40,874 bases of DNA, taken from an uncultured Caryophanales bacterium (GTDB lineage Bacteria; Bacillota_I; Bacilli_A; RF39; UBA660). Where the stretch lies: positions 1 to 40,874 of the forward strand of contig CAMKGA010000014.1 of assembly GCA_946412015.1 (NCBI GenBank), read 5' to 3'. The notes under the pieces were generated by a model. That model ran no database searches. It saw nothing but the letters and a program-made list of their open reading frames with translations, and was not told where the DNA came from. The translations under genes were made by a program, and so were the position numbers. Each line of letters opens with the position of its first letter. The stretch's first letter is position 1. This document shows positions 2,242-29,734 of the stretch, piece after piece.

Positions 2242-2943
2242 ATGTTTAACTTTATTAAAGAAGAAGATGGCGGATTTTATGGCGAATATTTTGAAAATAA
2301 GCAACTATTTAAAAAAAAGGTATATATGTATTTTCTTAATAATACTATTAATAATATTGATTATAATAAATTTGATAGTATTATTATAAATTCATTAAAA
2401 GCAATTAAATATACTTATAAAATAAATGAGTTATTAGATAAAGAATTTAAATTATATGGTTATAGTACATCTAATTATAGATATATAAATAATAAGAATA
2501 TTACAGCATATAATTTATATGGAATATTTTTAGGGGCTTTAGAAGGTAATTTAAATTATTATAGTGCTTTACTAAATGAATATTCAAAATGTAAAAAATA
2601 TGATAAAAATATTGAGACTATTGAAAAAAAGTATGAAAAATGCTTAAAATTACGTTCTAGAATAATAGATGAAGGTTTTTATGTAAAAGTTACTTTAGAT
2701 GATGATATAAATAGTATAATTCATTCGATAAATTGTTTAGATAAATTAAATAATATTAAAAAAAGTGATGAGAATTACAAAGCTTTTATCAAAAGTTATA
2801 ATTTATCTTATCAATTATCATCTATATTAAATATTGATTATTTAGAAGAATACTATAATAATATATTAGATTGGATTGATAGATTTAAAATGAAGGGTGT
2901 AAATAAAATGCCTAAAGTAAAAAAAATAGCTAAAAAAATATAG
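2242..2943 (+). CDS. Unrecognised helical protein
   Basis: This 233-aa protein has no motif I recognise. It is predicted by eye to be largely helical, with a Lys/Tyr/Asn-rich composition, no signal peptide and no membrane segment. It ends in a basic tail (PKVKKIAKKI). The start is secure: ATG at 2242 follows a strong AAGGAGG site at about 2231. It sits between a terminator and the dockerin-repeat gene and appears to be its own transcription unit. Base composition matches its neighbours, so there is no sign of recent transfer. Confidence 0.65.
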   Translation: MFNFIKEEDGGFYGEYFENKQLFKKKVYMYFLNNTINNIDYNKFDSIIINSLKAIKYTYKINELLDKEFKLYGYSTSNYRYINNKNITAYNLYGIFLGALEGNLNYYSALLNEYSKCKKYDKNIETIEKKYEKCLKLRSRIIDEGFYVKVTLDDDINSIIHSINCLDKLNNIKKSDENYKAFIKSYNLSYQLSSILNIDYLEEYYNNILDWIDRFKMKGVNKMPKVKKIAKKI

Positions 2944-3014
2944 CTGTATAAATATTTTTCATTGAAAATCTTTTTTTATTAATATATAATTTAATTAAGA
3001 GTAGTGGTGCGTTT

Positions 3015-4031
3015 ATGAAAAATAATAATATTTTTAAAACTGTTTTTATACTAGTTATTTTTGTTTTAATATTTTTAGTGTTTTACAATATAATAAAAAA
3101 GGATGACATTAATTTTGTACAGTCAAATTCTACCTTGAACGATATTTATTATTGTGAAGATGATTCTTATATTTTAAGTAATAAACTATGCTTTAAAAAC
3201 AATGTATATAAGCCTTATTTACTTGGTGATTTGGATAATAATGATATTGTAAATATAAATGATATAGAAATAATAAAGGAATATACTGATAATAAGAAAG
3301 AATTAAGCAATATCCAAATGATTACTGCGGATGTTAATAATGATCATATTGTTGATATTAATGATATTATTATGATGCAAGATAATTTGAAAGATAATAT
3401 AACAGAAATTGGTAAAAAATATATTTGTAACGATTCTGATGCTTTATATTTTGATAAGTGTATTAGTAAGTATAGTAAAGAAGCTAAAGTAAGAAAATTA
3501 ATTAAAGGTGACGTTAATCAAAATAAAAAATTAGATAATAATGATCTTTATTTGGTATATAGTTATATTAATAATAAGAACTATTTGACAGAATTACAAA
3601 AGAAAATAGCCGATATTAATAATGACGGAAAGATTAATGATAAAGATTTTAAATGGTATAAGAATAGAAAGTTAAAAAATGTTGCTATTAATAATAATAA
3701 CTATAAAAAAATAGATAATATTTATAAAGATGATAATATAGAAATTAATGGATATAAAGAGAAGAAAAATATAGATGAATCTTTTTATAGGTATTATTTT
3801 GATTTTAAATTAGAAAGTAGTATTTATTATAAGTTAGAGCTTTATTCTGATAATAAACAAACGAAAGAGTCTGAATGCAAAAAAGTAGATAATAATTCTA
3901 GATTGAAATTTAATATTGAACTTACGAGTATGAATAATTATGGAATATTACGTATATATACTGATGAATGTATAAACCAAATATCAGAATATAAAACAGA
4001 TATGTATAATTCAGATAAATCTATTAAGTAG
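3015..4031 (+). CDS. Membrane-anchored protein with two dockerin-type calcium-binding repeats
   Basis: This 338-aa protein has one N-terminal hydrophobic helix (residues about 9-26), an uncleaved signal anchor or signal peptide, so the rest is extracytoplasmic. Two dockerin type I-like modules follow. Module 1 has GDLDNNDIVNINDIEII and ADVNNDHIVDINDI; module 2 has GDVNQNKKLDNNDL and ADINNDGKINDKDF. Each is a pair of EF-hand-like loops with Asp/Asn at the calcium positions. The C-terminal 100 residues are a beta-rich region I do not recognise, with several Cys. In cellulosomes dockerins bind cohesins, but free dockerin-like repeats also occur in unrelated surface proteins. No cohesin is visible here. 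It lies upstream of the first prepilin-like gene on the same strand, separated by a 426-base gap. Confidence 0.75.
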   Translation: MKNNNIFKTVFILVIFVLIFLVFYNIIKKDDINFVQSNSTLNDIYYCEDDSYILSNKLCFKNNVYKPYLLGDLDNNDIVNINDIEIIKEYTDNKKELSNIQMITADVNNDHIVDINDIIMMQDNLKDNITEIGKKYICNDSDALYFDKCISKYSKEAKVRKLIKGDVNQNKKLDNNDLYLVYSYINNKNYLTELQKKIADINNDGKINDKDFKWYKNRKLKNVAINNNNYKKIDNIYKDDNIEINGYKEKKNIDESFYRYYFDFKLESSIYYKLELYSDNKQTKESECKKVDNNSRLKFNIELTSMNNYGILRIYTDECINQISEYKTDMYNSDKSIK

Positions 4032-4097
4032 CTTTAACTAAACTAATAGTAAATATTGATTTGATTATAAATATATTCACAGGGCTAATACTGATAG

Positions 4098-4175
4098 TGG
4101 TTTTCGGCGTCTAATGTCTGGAATGTCAACAATGATGGAAAGACTAGGAAAACAAGTATTATTCCTTCTGTTGTT
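4098..4175 (+). pseudogene. Orphan DGR repeat-like remnant (variable- or template-repeat fragment)
   Basis: One frame here reads W-F-S-A-S-N-V-W-N-V-N-N-D-G and, 36 bases later, V-V, matching the end of the prepilin-like gene downstream (W...VWYVTDDG...VVRP). There is no start, and an in-frame TAG lies immediately upstream, so it is not expressed as a normal protein. Positions 4116-4138 align without gaps to 5565-5587 with 4 differences in 23. At three of the four the remnant has A (AAT against TAT, AAC against ACC, AAT against GAT), the direction expected for a template repeat or a less mutated copy. The stretch is short, so a decayed target gene is also possible. Confidence 0.5.
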
Positions 4176-4193
4176 AAAACAGAAAAAAATATA

Positions 4194-4268
4194 TTGCAGA
4201 TGATTACGTTTTGTAGGTAGTTTTAAACTATGTGAAGACGGGCGTAATCTAGAACTGCAATTTTTTTT
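4194..4268 (+). ncRNA. Nested stem-loop ending in a T-tract: structured 3' end or terminator
   Basis: TTGCAG (4194-4199) pairs with CTGCAA (4255-4260). Inside it GATTACG (4202-4208) pairs with CGTAATC (4243-4249), and inside that lies a small TAGTT/AACTA hairpin. Eight T follow. This is more elaborate than the simple terminators elsewhere in the window and could be the 3' end of a small RNA that starts in or before the DGR-like remnant. The rest of the 4032-4457 gap holds no gene that I can support. Confidence 0.5.
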
Positions 4269-4457
4269 GTGCATAGTAGTGAAAAAAATAAATTTTAATG
4301 AAAAACGGGTAGAATAATAAAAAAATATATGATAAAATTTATATGTAAATAGATAAAGGTAGTATTAATAAATTCCAAAACAATTATTAAAATGGCAACT
4401 ATTATCTTTTAATTATTTGCATTTAGGCTCAAAGATAGAAGGAGGATATAGATAATT

Positions 4458-5663
4458 ATGAATTCAAGAAAGAAAGGATTTACTTTAATAGAATTAATAG
4501 CAGTATTAGTAATATTAGCAATCTTAGCACTAATCGTAACACCACTAGTTATGAATATAATTAGAAAGGCTAAAGTAAGTGCAGATAAGAGAAGTGTAGA
4601 TGCATACGGAAGAAGTGTCGAGTTAGCAATAGCTACTCACCTGCTAGATACAGGAGCATTTCCAACAGATTTAAAAAACTTAAATGTAGAATATACAGGA
4701 AAAACTGTAAGCTGTAATGTAATGCAAATGAAAGAAAATGGAGGAATATATTTATCTGAATGTTCGGTAGGAACTAAAGCTGTAAAAGACTCATCTACTG
4801 AAGATGGATGGTATCATTATGGTACTAGAGATATAACTAATGAAGAATATGTAGATATGTACGGATTAGCATTAAAAAATGCATCAGTAGCATATTATAA
4901 TGAAAATGGTAATCCAGTAGAGGATTATACAACTTTAACTATAGATTACAAAGGAAAATCAGTAGCATGTGATGTTACAGTTAACTATGATGGAACTATT
5001 TATATGACTAAATGTAAAGTAAATAATGTAGATGTAACTGATGATACAGAAGATGGATATTATCATTATGGAGCAATAACATTTAGACCATATAACATAG
5101 GAGATCAAGTAAGCTATAATAATGTAGATTATTATGTAATCAAAGATACAGATTCAAATGTAACATTATTAAAAGCAGAACCATTAACAGTAGCAGAAGT
5201 AAATCAATATGGAGCAGGACATGTGAATAGATATACACAATTTTCAGTAGGAACAGCAGATAATTCAAATGGTTATGGAGGAATGGCATATTATTCAAGT
5301 GAAACTTGCGGATATCCATATGGTCATACTGGTAATTCTGTATCAACTGGTTGTACAACAGATTATGCACAATCCGATATTAAATATGTAGTAGATGCAT
5401 GGAAAACTGCACAAGCACCTCAAGCACTTGAAGCAAGATTAATAACATATGAAGAATTAACAACAGATTTGGGATGTTCATCTTATTCTTGTACAAGAAC
5501 ATCAAAAAGTTGGTTGTATAATTCTAACTATTATTATTGGACAATGAGTCCATATTATAATAAAGTCTGGTATGTAACCGATGATGGCAGTCTTGACTAC
5601 TACAACTTTCTCATCTACTATGTTGTTCGCCCAGTTATAACTATCTCTAAATCTTCAATCTAA
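4458..5663 (+). CDS. Prepilin-like protein 1 with a C-terminal DGR-type variable domain
   Basis: The 401-aa protein starts with a class III (type IV pilin) signal: a short basic leader, cleavage expected between G7 and F8, FTLIELIAVLVILAI next, and Glu at mature position 5. A pilin-type domain at about 45-120 is repeated at about 130-200; both copies end in DGWYHYGT or DGYYHYGA. Residues about 205-401 resemble the C-type-lectin-like domains of DGR targets, with YYYWTMSPYY, VWYV and a terminal VVRPVI. The product is expected on a pilus or pseudopilus. The start is preceded by AGGAGG at a rather long spacing of 12 bases, but no better start exists. A paralogue sharing the same N-terminal design lies at 28280. 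The binding function is inferred from family knowledge. Confidence 0.8.
   Translation: MNSRKKGFTLIELIAVLVILAILALIVTPLVMNIIRKAKVSADKRSVDAYGRSVELAIATHLLDTGAFPTDLKNLNVEYTGKTVSCNVMQMKENGGIYLSECSVGTKAVKDSSTEDGWYHYGTRDITNEEYVDMYGLALKNASVAYYNENGNPVEDYTTLTIDYKGKSVACDVTVNYDGTIYMTKCKVNNVDVTDDTEDGYYHYGAITFRPYNIGDQVSYNNVDYYVIKDTDSNVTLLKAEPLTVAEVNQYGAGHVNRYTQFSVGTADNSNGYGGMAYYSSETCGYPYGHTGNSVSTGCTTDYAQSDIKYVVDAWKTAQAPQALEARLITYEELTTDLGCSSYSCTRTSKSWLYNSNYYYWTMSPYYNKVWYVTDDGSLDYYNFLIYYVVRPVITISKSSI
5538..5633 (+). other. Candidate DGR variable region in prepilin-like gene 1
   Basis: From the TGG codon of YYWTMSP to CGC CCA of VVRP. Codons 380-388 read GAC TAC TAC AAC TTT CTC ATC TAC TAT. All fit NNY, as expected from AAC/AAT template codons with the first two positions randomised. 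Seven of nine end in C, against the A/T-ending preference in the rest of the gene. The codon after VV switches to CGC CCA, a conserved flank. No template repeat with an intact match and no reverse transcriptase lie in this window. Confidence 0.6.
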
Positions 5664-5694
5664 GAATGAGCCAAAGTAGATTGAAAAAAAGGAT

Positions 5695-5793
5695 TTGGGA
5701 GATAATGATGTACGAAGGTAGGACTTTGTGCGAAAGGCACTGTTTTGTGAAACAAATCAGTGGTGATTGTTGCACCCGTAGGGTGTCTACCGC
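5695..5793 (+). ncRNA. Structured repeat, left copy, cut by the IS
   Basis: The 99 bases align without gaps to 7155-7253 with 88 identities by hand count; the first 68 bases differ at only two positions. Hairpins GTGC-GAAAG-GCAC, a CTGTTTTG/CAAA-CAG stem and CACCC-GTA-GGGTG are visible. It begins about 30 bases after the stop of prepilin-like gene 1 and stops exactly at the IS left end. I do not recognise the RNA family. It could be a noncoding RNA or an element tied to the DGR-type target. Confidence 0.5.
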
Positions 5794-5856
5794 TTATCAC
5801 AGGACACTTTTTTCTAAGCTTTTGTAACATAAAGAAATATAAAGTCAAAATATACG

Positions 5857-5881
5857 TCCAGTATATACAAAATATACTGGA
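5857..5881 (-). terminator. Hairpin after the IS transposase
   Basis: TCCAGTATAT and ATATACTGGA form a perfect 10-bp stem with a 5-base loop, just beyond the transposase stop. A moderate T-rich stretch follows on the minus strand. Probably the transposase terminator. Confidence 0.55.
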
Positions 5882-5885
5882 TGTT

Positions 5886-7024
5886 TTATATGTCATAGAG
5901 GATAAAATTGAATTTTAAATTATAATTAATGAATGAATTATAAATATGCTTAAAAATAGTCATTCCGATATTGAATAATGACTTTACTCTTATTATCTTT
6001 CCTTTAGTTCTTCTAATATCATATAAGTTAAATTTGCAGTGACTTTTGTTTTTTACATAATCAGCTCCTAAAATTATCATCCAAGTAATTGCAACACATG
6101 TTGCACCAAACATATTTCTAAATGCTGTAATATTTGATACAGTAGTATCTTCTAAATTAAATCCATTAGATTTTTGTGATTTGAATAGAAACTCTATCGC
6201 ACCAAATCTTTTATGATAATATTTAATGGCAAAACTAGGGTCCAAGTTTGTGACAATATACCAAGGATCATCGGTGTTTTTAGATGGACTAATTGCAAGA
6301 TTAACATTCATTTTTTGTGATTGAGTAAAGAGAATGCTTTTAAGTAATTTTGATGAATTAGTCCTAGGTTTTATATCAGTTAGAGATCTAAATTCATTAC
6401 CATCAGTACTAACAGAAACATTAGTTTTGGTTCTAATACAAAACTTATCCCCTAAAGAATCAATATATTTAAAAATTGCAGGATCATTAAACCAACGGTC
6501 TGCAAGAAAAATTAAGTTATATTTTTTGTTAAATAGATTATGAACGAAAAGAACGCCATCTTTAATGGTATCAATAGAGAATGCTTCTTTATCATTTCCT
6601 TTAAAACATCTAAACCATAAAGGAATTCCTTGCTTTCCAACTCTTAGAGAAATCATAAAAACAGAATAATTATCATGAGAAAACATGTGATCAAAGATAA
6701 TATGAATTCTTTTGTCAGTGTGTTTAACTTTATATTTAGATATAACAAATTTTATGAGCTTGTCATAGAAATCATAAGGATTAAAAAGTTTATTAGTAAA
6801 GAATCTTTTTATTCTTCTGATAACAGAATCATGTTGAACTAAAGAAAAATTACCTTTTAAGTTTTTTGCAATATCAGAAGCAACAACGGATTCGGCTAAA
6901 ATCATACCAATAACAATATAAGGAATAATTTTAAGTTGAGTTTTTTTTATATTACCAAAAATTCTAATAAAAAATTCTTTAATTTAGTTGCAATTTCTTC
7001 TTGAGTATTATATACTTTATTCAT
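5886..7024 (-). pseudogene. IS4-family DDE transposase, frameshifted near its N-terminus
   Basis: The long open part (6905-5886, 339 aa) is an IS4-type transposase: an RNase H-like fold with IIFDHMFSHD (first Asp), NLIFLADRWF (second Asp) and the YREK-type signature YHKRFGAIEFLFKSQK carrying the catalytic Glu. Upstream, another frame starts at ATG 7024 after an AGGTAG site and reads MNKVYNTQEEIATKLKNF, then runs to a stop. Reading across the two frames gives a continuous protein (about 379 aa) if the run of six T after AAGAA (minus strand, near 6970) were seven. So the copy is disrupted by one base in a homopolymer, uses frameshifting, or contains a sequencing error. Confidence 0.75.
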
Positions 7025-7093
7025 ACGGCTACCTGCTTTCTATTATTTTTTTAGTTAACCATATTTTAGCAGAAAAATGCCGTATAAGCAACG

Positions 7094-7127
7094 AAAGGAC
7101 CCGGGGATGTAAATCCTCGAGTCCTTT
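7094..7127. other. Long hairpin upstream of the transposase inside the IS
   Basis: AAAGGAC-C-CGGGGAT and ATCCTCG-A-GTCCTTT form 14 pairs with one C/A mismatch around GTAA. It lies between the right IS end and the transposase start. In other IS elements such structures block transcription entering from outside; that role is inferred here. Confidence 0.45.
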
Positions 7128-7154
7128 CTAAATGAAAAACTGTCCGGTTATAAG

Positions 7155-7290
7155 TTGGGAGATAATGGTGTACGAAGGTAGGACTTTGTGCGAAAGGCAC
7201 TGTTTTGTGAAACAAAGCAGTGGAATAGGTAGCACCCGTATGGTGTCTATCGTAAGCTTTAACGATTGCACTATAGGTGCGAGAGTGAAG
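7155..7290 (+). ncRNA. Structured repeat, right copy (fuller version)
   Basis: It starts three bases after the IS right end and repeats the 99-base unit seen at 5695, then extends. Successive hairpins are GTGC/GCAC (7188-7200), TGTTTTG/CAAAGCA (7201-7219), GGTAGCACC with GGTG-CTATC (7228-7251, one bulged T) and TTGCAC/GTGCGA (7266-7282). Several loops contain GAAA-like or purine-rich sequence. There is no open reading frame. The order of hairpins suggests a folded RNA. I cannot match it to a known family. Confidence 0.55.
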
Positions 7291-7334
7291 ATAATATAAC
7301 TAAATAGTAACGAAAAAAATTAATGAAAAAAAAT

Positions 7335-7380
7335 ATCAGACCAAAGGATTGAATATCATTTGGTCTGATTGATTTTTTTT
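7335..7380 (+). terminator. Rho-independent terminator after the structured repeat
   Basis: ATCAGACCAAA and TTTGGTCTGAT form an 11-bp stem with a 13-base loop. After a short TGA spacer come eight T. It could end a transcript from the structured repeat at 7155. Confidence 0.7.
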
Positions 7381-7499
7381 AAAAGATTACATGTCTATAT
7401 ACTAGGTATTTTTTCATGATATAATAAATTATAGTTAGAGAGTAATATTTATATGGAGTATAAATTGTAAAATATAAAGTCATAAATATTTTAAAGTTA

Positions 7500-7535
7500 A
7501 AAAGTCATAACTTTAGATGTTTATGACTCTTTTTG
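7500..7535 (+). terminator. Second terminator-like hairpin
   Basis: AAAGTCATAA and TTTATGACTCTTTTT form a stem and T-run. A TGATATAAT extended -10 sits upstream at 7417-7425, so a short transcript between the two is possible, but no gene is visible there. Confidence 0.45.
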
Positions 7536-7574
7536 ATATACTTATATTATCTCATACTAGGAGTTGATATAAGT

Positions 7575-7805
7575 ATGAGAAAAGATATAATGATAGAAAA
7601 AATAATTATTGGAGGTGAAAAATTGAATAAAAGTGAATTAGCTAGACAATATGATTGCTGCTAGAGAACTATTGATAGAAGATTAAATCCATAAAATATC
7701 AAAGAAAAAAAAATGAAAAGGATTTATACTTCAAAACTTGATGAATTTAAAAATATTATTGATGAAAAAAAGGATTTAGATATATTAGAAAAAATAATAA
7801 ATTAG
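7575..7805 (+). pseudogene. IS21-type IstA transposase, N-terminal remnant with stops
   Basis: Starting at ATG 7575, about 25 bases before an internal GGAGGTG, one frame reads MRKDIMIEKIIIGGEKL, NKSELARQYDCC, stop, RTIDRRLNP, stop, and RIYTSKLDEFKNIIDEKKDL. This is the helix-turn-helix start of IS21-type IstA proteins, interrupted by TAG and TAA and followed by nothing like the catalytic core. The DNA from 7806 to 7987 is A/T-rich and shows no gene I can support. Confidence 0.6.
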
Positions 7806-7987
7806 TAGTTAAAGTAAAAAATCAAACAAAGAAAAGATTTAAAAGAAGAATAAAAACTATTTATAAATTATATATCAATTGATAAATATTATGATTTAGG
7901 AAGTAAAGTTATAATAAGTGATAATAATGATTTATTATATGTAATGAAATTTTAATAGATTTATTATTTTACAATTTATAATATAAA

Positions 7988-7996
7988 TGATATAAT
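7988..7996 (+). promoter_or_regulatory. Extended -10 element before lepA
   Basis: TGATATAAT, an extended -10 of the housekeeping sigma factor, 25 bases before the lepA start and upstream of its AGGAG site. No good -35 is visible, as expected for extended -10 promoters. Confidence 0.5.
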
Positions 7997-8020
7997 TATT
8001 TAGGCAAAAAAGGAGTTATT

Positions 8021-9811
8021 ATGAAACAAGAAAATATACGTAATTTTTCTATTATAGCTCATATAGATCATGGAAAAAGTACAATTGCAGATAGAATATT
8101 AGAGTTAACTGGCGCAGTTAGTAAGCGTGAAATTAAAGAACAAATGTTAGATAGTATGGATATAGAGCGTGAGCGTGGTATAACTATAAAGCTAAATGCT
8201 GTACAATTAAAATATCACTATAAAAACGAAGACTATATTTTAAATTTAATTGATACACCAGGGCATGTGGATTTTTCGTATGAAGTATCTCGTAGTCTTG
8301 CTGCATGTGAGGGGGCTATACTTGTTGTAGATGCTGCACAAGGAGTTGAAGCGCAAACATTAGCTAATTTATATTTAGCTATGGAAAACGATTTAAAAAT
8401 AATTCCTGTTATTAATAAAATCGATCTTCCAAATGCAGATGTTGATAGAGTAAAAAAAGAACTTATTGATAATTTAGGATTTGAAGATGATGAAATTATA
8501 CTATGTAGTGGCAAGGCAGGAATTGGAATTCAAGAATTAGTTGAAGCTGTTATTGATAGAATACCTAATCCAAAGGTAGAATCTAATGATTTACAAGCTT
8601 TGATATTTGATTCATATTTTGATGCATATCGTGGTATAGTTATAATTCTTAGAGTATTCAATGGTTCTATTAAAGTAGGAGATAAAATAAAGATGCATGC
8701 AACGGGCGCAGTATATGATGTTGTAAGTGTTGGAGTGCATAATCCTAAAGAATGTATTAAAGATAAACTGGTAAGTGGTGAGGTTGGTTTTATAACTGCT
8801 AGTATAAAAAGTATTAGTGATGTTAAAGTTGGAGATACTATTGTTAAAGAAAATTCATTAATGGCACCACTACCTGGATATCAACCAATGAAACCTATGG
8901 TTTTTTGTGGACTTTATCCAATAGAATCTAGCAAGTTTCCAGCACTTAGAGAAGCATTAGATAAATTAAAATTGAATGATGCGTCTTTAGAATTTGAACC
9001 TGAAACTAGTGAAGCATTAGGATTTGGATTTAGATGTGGATTCTTAGGATTACTTCATATGGAAATAATTCAAGAGAGAATAGAAAGAGAATTTGATATA
9101 GATTTGATAGCTACTAGTCCAAGTGTTATATATAAAATAGAATTAACTGATGGAAGCAGTATTTATATTGATTCACCATCTAAGATGCCAGAAAGACAAA
9201 GAATCAGTAAAATATATGAGCCATACATTAAAACAAATATATTTGTACCAAGTGATTATATAGGTGCGATTATGAAATTATGTCAAGATAAAAGAGGTAA
9301 TTATAAATCATTAGAATATATAGATTTAAAAAGAGTAAACATTCATTATGAAATACCATTATCAGAAATAGTATATGACTTTTTTGATAGATTAAAATCT
9401 ACTACTAAGGGATATGCATCTTTTGATTATGATTTAATTGGATATAAAGAATCTAAATTAGTAAAAATGGATATTTTATTAAATGGCAAAGTAGTTGATG
9501 CATTAAGTTTAATTGTACATAAAGATTTTGCATACAATAGAGGTAAAAGTATTGTAGAGGCATTAAGAAAGTTAATTCCACGTCAACAATTTGAAATACC
9601 AATACAAGCAGTAATAGGTTCTAAAGCTATTGCAAGAACTGATATAAAGGCTGTTAGAAAAAATGTTTTAGCCAAGTGCTATGGTGGAGATGTATCTAGA
9701 AAAAGAAAATTACTAGAAGCTCAAAAAGAAGGAAAAAAACGTATGAAAATGGTTGGAAATGTCGAAGTTCCACAGGAAGCATTTTTAGCGGTTTTATCTA
9801 TGGAAGAATAA
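8021..9811 (+). CDS. lepA: Elongation factor 4 (LepA), ribosomal back-translocase GTPase
   Basis: EF4 is a translational GTPase that acts on stalled or misassembled ribosomes. The 596-aa protein is full length. GTPase motifs are in order: AHIDHGKST (G1), RGITI (G2), DTPGHVDF (G3), NKIDLP (G4) and SGKAGIG (G5). Domain II follows, then the EF-G-like domains, with [20 protein letters not shown] and the LepA-specific C-terminal region ([20 protein letters not shown], then PQEAF) that reaches toward the peptidyl-transferase centre. Start ATG 8021 follows AAAGGAG. The hemW-like gene begins two bases after the stop, so the two are co-transcribed; this order is conserved in many Bacillota. Confidence 0.97.
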
Positions 9812-28279: not shown

Positions 28280-29734
28280 ATGAAAAAGAAAGGTTTTACT
28301 TTAATAGAGTTAATAGGAGTGTTAGTAATACTTGCGATAATTGCTTTAATAGCAACCTCATTAGTAATGTCAATTATAAGAAAAGCAAAAATTTCTGCAA
28401 GAAAAAGAAGTATAGACGCATATGGTAGAAGTGTAGAGTTAGCTATTGCATCATACTTACTTGATACAGGAGTATTTCCAACTAATGAACAACTACCTAA
28501 TTTACAAATAGAGTATAGTGGGAATAAAGTTGAATGTAGTGTTATGAATATGAAGAAGAATGGTGGACTATATTTATCACAATGTAAGGTTAATAATATT
28601 GAAGTTAAAGACTCTAATGAGGAAGATGGATGGTATCACTATGGTACAAGAGATTTAACTAATAGTGAGACTATTGAAATGTATGGAAAAGCAATAGAGC
28701 AAGCATTAAAAGAATATCATGATATAAATAATACATATCCAGCTGATATTTCATCTTTAGCGCTTAATTATACAGGTGAAAAGGTTGATGCAGATGTATT
28801 AATAAATAAAGATGGGACAGTATATTTAACTAATTGTAGGGTAAGTGGTATTTCTGTTGATATAGTTTATGGAGAAGATAAAACTACAGCTGTAGACAAG
28901 TTGTTGTCAAAAACAAATGATATATCTATAACAACATATACTGATGGAAATACCCATGAAATGTATACATTTGATCATCCTGCTACCGAACAGACAGGAG
29001 AACTTACTGATTATAGATATATAGGAGCAAACCCAAATAATTATGTAACATTTAATGATGAATTATGGAGAATAATTGGAGTATTTACAGTAGAAGATGA
29101 AAATGGTAATCAAGAACAAAGAATCAAACTAATTAGAAATGAGAAACTTTCTAGCGATATGGCCTGGAATTCAAATAATGTAAATGAATGGGGTGTCGCA
29201 GCGCTTAAAAACTATCTTAATGGTGATTATTATAATAGTATAACTAGTGAGTCAAAAAGTATGGTTGTAGATACAAAATATTATTTAGGTGGTAGAGCAT
29301 ATGATTCAACAACACACTATGGAACGACATCAGAAATGTATGCTTGGGAGCGAGGAACAACAGTACATTCTGGAAGAAGTGTGTCTTGGGTAGGAAAAAT
29401 AGGCTTGATGTACCCAAGTGATAATTATTATACCTATTCATTGGAAGTGGATAACATTTGTTATAATGATGGATATAATTGTAAAACCAATGCAGGTGGA
29501 ATACCTATAAATGGATGGATATATAATACTAATATTAATTCTTTGCAATGGCTTATTTCCCCACGTTCAGATGATTCGAGTCGTGTGTTCCATATGGAGG
29601 TTTCGGGTTGTATCAACGGTAACACTTCGGGAGGGACACGTGGCGTTCGACCTAGTTTGTATCTTGCATCTGATGTTAAAATATCCTCTGGTGATGGATC
29701 AGAACAAAATCCGTATGTATTATCGATGAATTAA
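28280..29734 (+). CDS. Prepilin-like protein 2 with a C-terminal DGR-type variable domain
   Basis: The 484-aa protein begins with the class III signal MKKKG/FTLIELIGVLVILAI; the cut is expected after G5, with Glu at mature position 5. As in prepilin-like protein 1, a pilin-type domain (about 40-118, ending DGWYHYGT) is followed by a second, more divergent copy (about 125-195). Residues about 240-484 form a lectin-like domain with NNYVTFNDELWRIIGVF, WISP-like WLISPRS at W424 and GVRPSLYLASDV near the end, the usual finish of DGR targets. The gene has its own promoter with a 20-base direct repeat and a good AAGGAGAG site. It is divergent from the double-HTH regulator. It is longer than protein 1, mainly in the lectin-like part. 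Confidence 0.8.
   Translation: MKKKGFTLIELIGVLVILAIIALIATSLVMSIIRKAKISARKRSIDAYGRSVELAIASYLLDTGVFPTNEQLPNLQIEYSGNKVECSVMNMKKNGGLYLSQCKVNNIEVKDSNEEDGWYHYGTRDLTNSETIEMYGKAIEQALKEYHDINNTYPADISSLALNYTGEKVDADVLINKDGTVYLTNCRVSGISVDIVYGEDKTTAVDKLLSKTNDISITTYTDGNTHEMYTFDHPATEQTGELTDYRYIGANPNNYVTFNDELWRIIGVFTVEDENGNQEQRIKLIRNEKLSSDMAWNSNNVNEWGVAALKNYLNGDYYNSITSESKSMVVDTKYYLGGRAYDSTTHYGTTSEMYAWERGTTVHSGRSVSWVGKIGLMYPSDNYYTYSLEVDNICYNDGYNCKTNAGGIPINGWIYNTNINSLQWLISPRSDDSSRVFHMEVSGCINGNTSGGTRGVRPSLYLASDVKISSGDGSEQNPYVLSMN
29549..29653 (+). other. Candidate DGR variable region in prepilin-like gene 2
   Basis: From TGG (W424) to CGA CCT (R-P of GVRP). The stretch is clearly richer in G and C than the gene around it and uses codons rare elsewhere in the window: TCG three times, CGT, GGG, CGA, GGC. 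Many codons have NNY form (GAT GAT, AGT CGT, TTC CAT, GGT TGT ATC AAC GGT AAC). This fits a template of foreign composition copied into the gene, but without the template repeat it cannot be proved. Confidence 0.5.

Follow-up and report, generated by a model that had tools for sequence, protein, structure and literature searches.

The window analysed here, a 40,874-nucleotide stretch of DNA from an uncultured Caryophanales bacterium, carries a short orphan repeat at 4116-4138 close to a prepilin-like gene (gene 1), and the question it raises is whether this repeat descends from the template repeat (TR) of a diversity-generating retroelement (DGR) or from an older copy of a target. A DGR uses its TR as the stock sequence from which genes for surface proteins are hypermutated. 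Both alternatives had been put forward in an earlier note. The alignment on which they were based is exact: 4116-4138 matches 5565-5587 without gaps at 19 of 23 bases, and the orphan has A at three of the four differences (4122, A/T; 4129, A/C; 4131, A/G), the fourth being C/A (orphan/gene 1) at 4127. No other site in the window, with both strands searched, matches the 23-mer at 17 or more bases. Taken alone, the match has a significance of about 1 in 200, a 19-base match to the 23-mer having been reached in 1 of 200 order-1 Markov windows. Homology is settled by longer matches rather than by the 23-mer itself: the segment 4060-4290 matches two loci of the same genome, C13 (E 3e-18) and C25 (E 6e-37), and it matches contig C74 of a genome of the same genus (G003:C74) at 59 of 59 bases and at 84% over about 154. 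Among 193 sampled family genomes, a sample without G003, the 59-mer (4080-4138) occurs only in its own genome, and viral contigs yielded no exact copy of the TR core. The gap that holds the orphan, 4032-4457, contains no listed open reading frame of at least 80 aa.

The G003:C74 cassette provides an intact counterpart. It consists, in order, of an RT 3' end, the sequence beginning CAGGGCTAATACTG, the TR, a spacer, two hairpins, a T-tract and a prepilin-like target with its VR. Its TR and leader (265-323) are the sequence that is identical, 59/59, to window 4080-4138, and from 4139 onward the window sequence resumes at G003 position 414. Of the 90 nt absent from the window, 47 nt form the 3' end of the TR (to ...CGCCCAG) and 43 nt belong to the spacer, the latter being 34 nt plus one copy of CAATGATGG. 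This 9-bp sequence stands as a direct repeat in the G003:C74 stretch (L098) at 315-323 and 405-413, with a spacing of 90. The orphan is thus a TR internally deleted between two 9-bp direct repeats, and replication slippage or recombination between short repeats was presumably the cause. The corresponding features of the window are as follows.

4080-4101, plus strand: template RNA leader, identical in G003:C74 and conserved upstream of the TR in 8 DGR cassettes; 4081-4092 (AGGGCTAATACT) is the 5' arm of helix P1 and pairs with 4155-4166, with compensatory changes.
4102-4138, plus strand: surviving 5' part of the TR, 37 nt, identical to the intact TR of G003:C74, with adenine-only mismatches to the G003 and C25 VRs.
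4130-4138, plus strand: deletion junction, the remaining CAATGATGG copy of the 9-bp direct repeat whose two copies bound the 90 nt present in G003:C74.
4139-4268, plus strand: 3' part of the template RNA, with the orphaned P2 3' arm (4144-4151), the P1 3' arm (4155-4166), hairpins P3 (about 4166-4184) and P4 (about 4190-4261) and a T-tract.

The structure of this RNA was examined in an alignment of TR RNAs from related genomes. The leader arm of P1 pairs with AGTATTATTCCT beyond the TR; P2, the spacer helix, is formed across relatives by the arms TTTCCTAG/CTAGGAAA, TTCCTTAA/TTAAGGAA and TTCTTTAA/TTAAAGAA; hairpin P3, the long hairpin P4 and the T-tract follow. Compensatory changes were seen in P1, P2 and P4. 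Helix pairing amounts to 96-100% within sequences, compared with 84-90% when partners are swapped between sequences; the pairs were counted in Python and the arms were chosen by eye, which makes this comparison supportive rather than blind. In the window itself, P1, P3, P4 and the T-tract are kept as in the RT-linked relatives, and the P2 5' arm is lost together with the TR 3' end, so that no intact (IMH*-like) TR 3' end adjoins the structured spacer. The structure in the gap folds better than its shuffles (z = -2.75), and its T-tract (4260-4268) lies directly 3' of the last hairpin. R1, a covariance model built from six sequences of the template RNA's 3' part, gave 4139-4268 a score of 122.6 bits, the window sequence itself being in the seed. 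R1 also found four unlisted loci, each beside a DGR RT: G002:C21, G004:C3 and G012:C44 lie directly downstream of RT and TR, and the weak match G014:C1 (E 0.007) lies upstream of Avd and RT. These four loci bear out the proposal that the fold ending in a T-tract represents the 3' end of a template RNA. An Rfam scan of 2900-8100 returned no curated family, only a chance-level snoRNA match elsewhere in that range; the TR-RNA fold is not recognised by Rfam.

Mismatches between the orphan and the better-preserved VRs then separate template from target. Over 36 nt, the orphan differs from the G003 VR at seven positions and from the C25 VR at five, all of them orphan adenines (hypergeometric p=4e-6 and p=3e-4, uncorrected for the several VR-TR pairs scanned), and at none of these 12 mismatches is the VR letter A. 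The restriction of TR/VR mismatches to TR adenines that characterizes DGRs is therefore present for both pairs. Against the C7 VR, six of eight mismatches are at A (p=2e-3, likewise uncorrected), and against the gene 1 VR three of five over 27 nt. The earlier note had held that a better alignment to another target with A and non-A differences equally common would count against a template; a better match to another target does exist, in C25, yet it differs at A only. The orphan is accordingly read as a template because its intact sister homologue sits as a TR and its mismatches to the better-preserved VRs fall only at orphan A. Of the two original alternatives, the decayed template repeat stood and the older target copy did not. 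The internal 90-nt deletion and an RT fossil further downstream had been missed in the note.

The remainder of the decayed cassette lies downstream of the template remnant.

4458-5663, plus strand: gene 1, a prepilin-like target of 401 aa with an N_methyl N-terminus (Pfam PF07963) and a VR-like C-terminus, in the same relative position as the G003:C74 target.
5560-5634, plus strand: aged VR of gene 1, whose best TR is of the G003 type (12 A and 9 non-A mismatches over 74 nt, p=0.014, uncorrected as above).
5695-5792, plus strand: conserved target-downstream element (repeat family D2) with a hairpin at 5738-5762; a homologous stretch lies downstream of the G003:C74 target.
5886-6905, minus strand: IS transposase (DDE; Pfam PF01609) inside the decayed cassette.
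7155-7252, plus strand: second copy of the target-downstream element, beyond the IS, 90% identical to 5695-5792.
7772-7955, plus strand: fossil of a DGR RT C-terminus with an internal deletion and a frameshift (tblastn to the C13 RT, 79% over 34 aa, E=4e-11, for 7772-7879).

With 12 A against 9 non-A mismatches, gene 1 is by itself weakly tied to the orphan template. Gene 1 and C25 are recent duplicates: between 4277 and about 5276 their identity is about 90-100%, and they have diverged at the VR end. An AlphaFold model of gene 1 (pLDDT 71, pTM 0.48), made to look for a C-type-lectin-like fold holding the VR, is too weak for a fold call; Foldseek against the PDB gave no match below 1e-3, and a weak DUF6273 similarity was seen. 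The target-downstream element, whose hairpin is built around GTGAAAC/GCGAAGC, occurs also at about 1634-1719 of L098 and about 11000-11110 of L022, about 100 nt downstream of the VR. It could be a target-recognition hairpin, though it lies further from the VR than in BPP-1. Within the RT fossil, 7881-7925 weakly matches the tail of the G003 RT (E=0.05), and about 7881-7952, in another frame, is probably the fossil's tail. The fossil at 7772-7955 is all that the locus retains of a DGR-type RT, and the (I/V/L)GxxxSQ motif is not part of it. A search of the window with the C13 Avd found no counterpart, and no RT remnant was detected upstream of the TR remnant, on the side of the dockerin gene. 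That gene (3015-4031), directly upstream of the TR remnant, encodes a protein of dockerin type I repeats that has a membrane segment at its N-terminus.

Elsewhere in the same genome, locus C13 (L022 8570-12137) comprises, in order, a prepilin-like target, the downstream element, a MutS_I-like protein, Avd, RT, TR and the structured 3' RNA. Its accessory and RT genes were called as MutS_I-like, bAvd and RT proteins, Avd and RT also by PHROG. The best PDB sequence match of the C13 RT is 8ub7, a 328-aa reverse transcriptase that we take to be the BPP-1 RT. Motif 4 of the C13 RT reads IGSMSSQ, in line with the DGR motif (I/V/L)GxxxSQ (defined in PMC3521204). The C13 VR and TR differ by 16 A and 1 non-A mismatches (p=7e-10, with the same qualification), and C13 is a complete and probably working DGR in the window's own genome. 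C26 and C8 (L064 1-4000, L065 4000-7898) represent a second DGR class, in which the TR precedes Avd and RT and the targets are DUF6273-like prepilins. Avd is present at C13 and C26, and the C8 RT appears broken into two separate RVT_1 matches. The C26/C8 RTs were rejected as the source of the orphan, their TRs being of another class and upstream of the RT. The C2 RT (L063 9503-10435) was rejected likewise, being of retron type (Retron Ec107-like, PADLOC E 1e-117).

In the proposed mechanism, the intact RNA of the relatives consists of the leader arm of P1, the TR, the self-folding spacer P2, the second P1 arm closing the TR in a loop, P3, P4 and the T-tract. RT with Avd copies the TR, making errors at adenines, and the resulting cDNA replaces the VR at the 3' end of the prepilin-like gene. 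Deletion between the two CAATGATGG repeats removed 90 nt from the window template, of which 47 nt were TR, including the IMH* equivalent, and 43 nt were spacer that contained the P2 5' arm; the local RT was reduced to a fossil. Gene 1 and C25 keep VRs of this TR lineage, and their rewriting from it is no longer possible, as far as the assembly shows. The segment 4080-4268 may well be transcribed. We infer that the template is dead because its TR 3' end and one P2 arm are lost. In BPP-1 experiments, the TR interior (positions 23-96) could be replaced, but the 3'-terminal IMH region was required (PMC3240598), and the spacer recruits bRT-Avd and primes the cDNA (PMC12875486). The truncated template is probably inactive, because the deletion hits the side needed in BPP-1 and no other sequence of its own genome carries the fused TR-spacer junction. 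We conclude that 4080-4268 is very probably the remnant of a DGR template-repeat RNA gene, dead after TR truncation and RT loss.

The truncated RNA could conceivably still function, either as a template, if the C13 RT bound its spacer in trans and copied the short TR, or by serving as decoy or gene 1 regulator. It keeps P1, P3 and P4; a related spacer RNA, 75% identical, serves the C13 RT in this genome; the 59/59 match to G003 points to a recent loss or to constraint; and trans activity between DGR loci has been reported in Thiohalocapsa (PMC10907252). However, both the TR 3' end and the 5' arm of P2 are gone, and the fused junction is not repeated in the genome, where a match would be expected had such cDNA been pasted. 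We consider continued function of this kind very unlikely, and it is highly improbable that the retired template turned into a regulatory RNA that competes for the Avd-RT of the other DGR or controls gene 1.

An assembly artefact, with an intact TR in the cell and the two CAATGATGG copies collapsed by the assembler, is most unlikely as well: a 9-bp repeat is shorter than the k-mers that assemblers use, and the local RT is missing too, which is consistent with real decay. The genome assembly is nevertheless fragmented (57 contigs, 93% complete), and DGR structural variants do coexist in populations (PMC10907252); an intact TR copy could be missing from the assembly, and the deletion could be polymorphic. 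Almost certainly wrong is the reading of the orphan as a decayed target-gene 3' end, an old VR: although one frame reads VWNVNNDG, similar to target C-termini, in the RT-linked relatives G003 and C13 the orphan occupies the place of a TR with respect to RT and spacer, the adenine changes run from orphan A to VR letters that are never A, no target-coding sequence lies upstream, and the leader and 3' RNA around it are those of TR RNAs.

The decayed template thus belongs to a system resembling the BPP-1 DGR (avd-TR-brt, target mtd) in its adenine-specific transfer from TR to VR, its Avd and RT and its structured spacer 3' of the TR. Unlike BPP-1, the class-1 cassettes here have the TR downstream of the RT and a spacer RNA ending in a T-tract, the targets are prepilin-like cell proteins, and the window copy is truncated, without RT and TR 3' end. 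Compared with C13, the window template has the same TR-RNA architecture (3' part 75% identical) and the same target family, whereas C13 is complete with MutS_I-like protein, Avd and RT, has a VR that departs from its TR almost only at adenines, and has a TR sequence of another lineage. The multi-locus DGRs of Thiohalocapsa PB-PSB1 (PMC10907252) are likewise several in a single cellular genome, with targets that have been duplicated, RT or TR lost in connection with transposons, and possible use in trans. Decay there proceeded by transposon/MITE insertion, whereas the window TR was cut by a 9-bp-repeat deletion, though an IS lies in this locus too; the targets there are NTPase sensors and here prepilin-like. 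The window locus is a decayed DGR locus; decay with loss of RT or TR has been described before, in Thiohalocapsa (PMC10907252), and the mechanism is known.

The locus offers a snapshot of DGR death: the template is intact in one species and carries a 90-nt, repeat-bounded deletion in its sister, with VR-bearing genes left behind. The covarying TR-RNA architecture, a helix closing across the TR plus spacer helices, is described here for cellular DGRs of uncultured rumen-type Bacilli; it can serve to find templates where the RT is not known beforehand, and it leads to predictions, open to testing, on the RNA features that Avd-RT requires outside phage BPP-1. The analysis also brought to light a genome with about 30 prepilin-like genes carrying VR-type ends, a list that rests on search matches and fetched stretches of the genome. 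A prepilin N-terminus was found in 31 ORFs over many contigs of this small (1.7 Mb) genome, most of them ending in VR-like ...VRPVI or VRPSLYL, and only a minority of such genes show adenine-specific mismatches to a known TR. A rumen-type bacterium with about 30 prepilin-like genes and two DGR classes is an unusual context, and our literature search found no paper joining diversity-generating retroelements with prepilins. The relatives among named records are uncultured 'Erysipelotrichaceae' MAGs (RUG series) and a 'Bacillales' MAG, and the rumen origin is our reading of isolate names. A second prepilin-like gene in the window, at 28280-29734, has as its best TR one of the C8 type, with as many non-A as A mismatches (18/17); it is a target, either old or remote, of the second DGR class.
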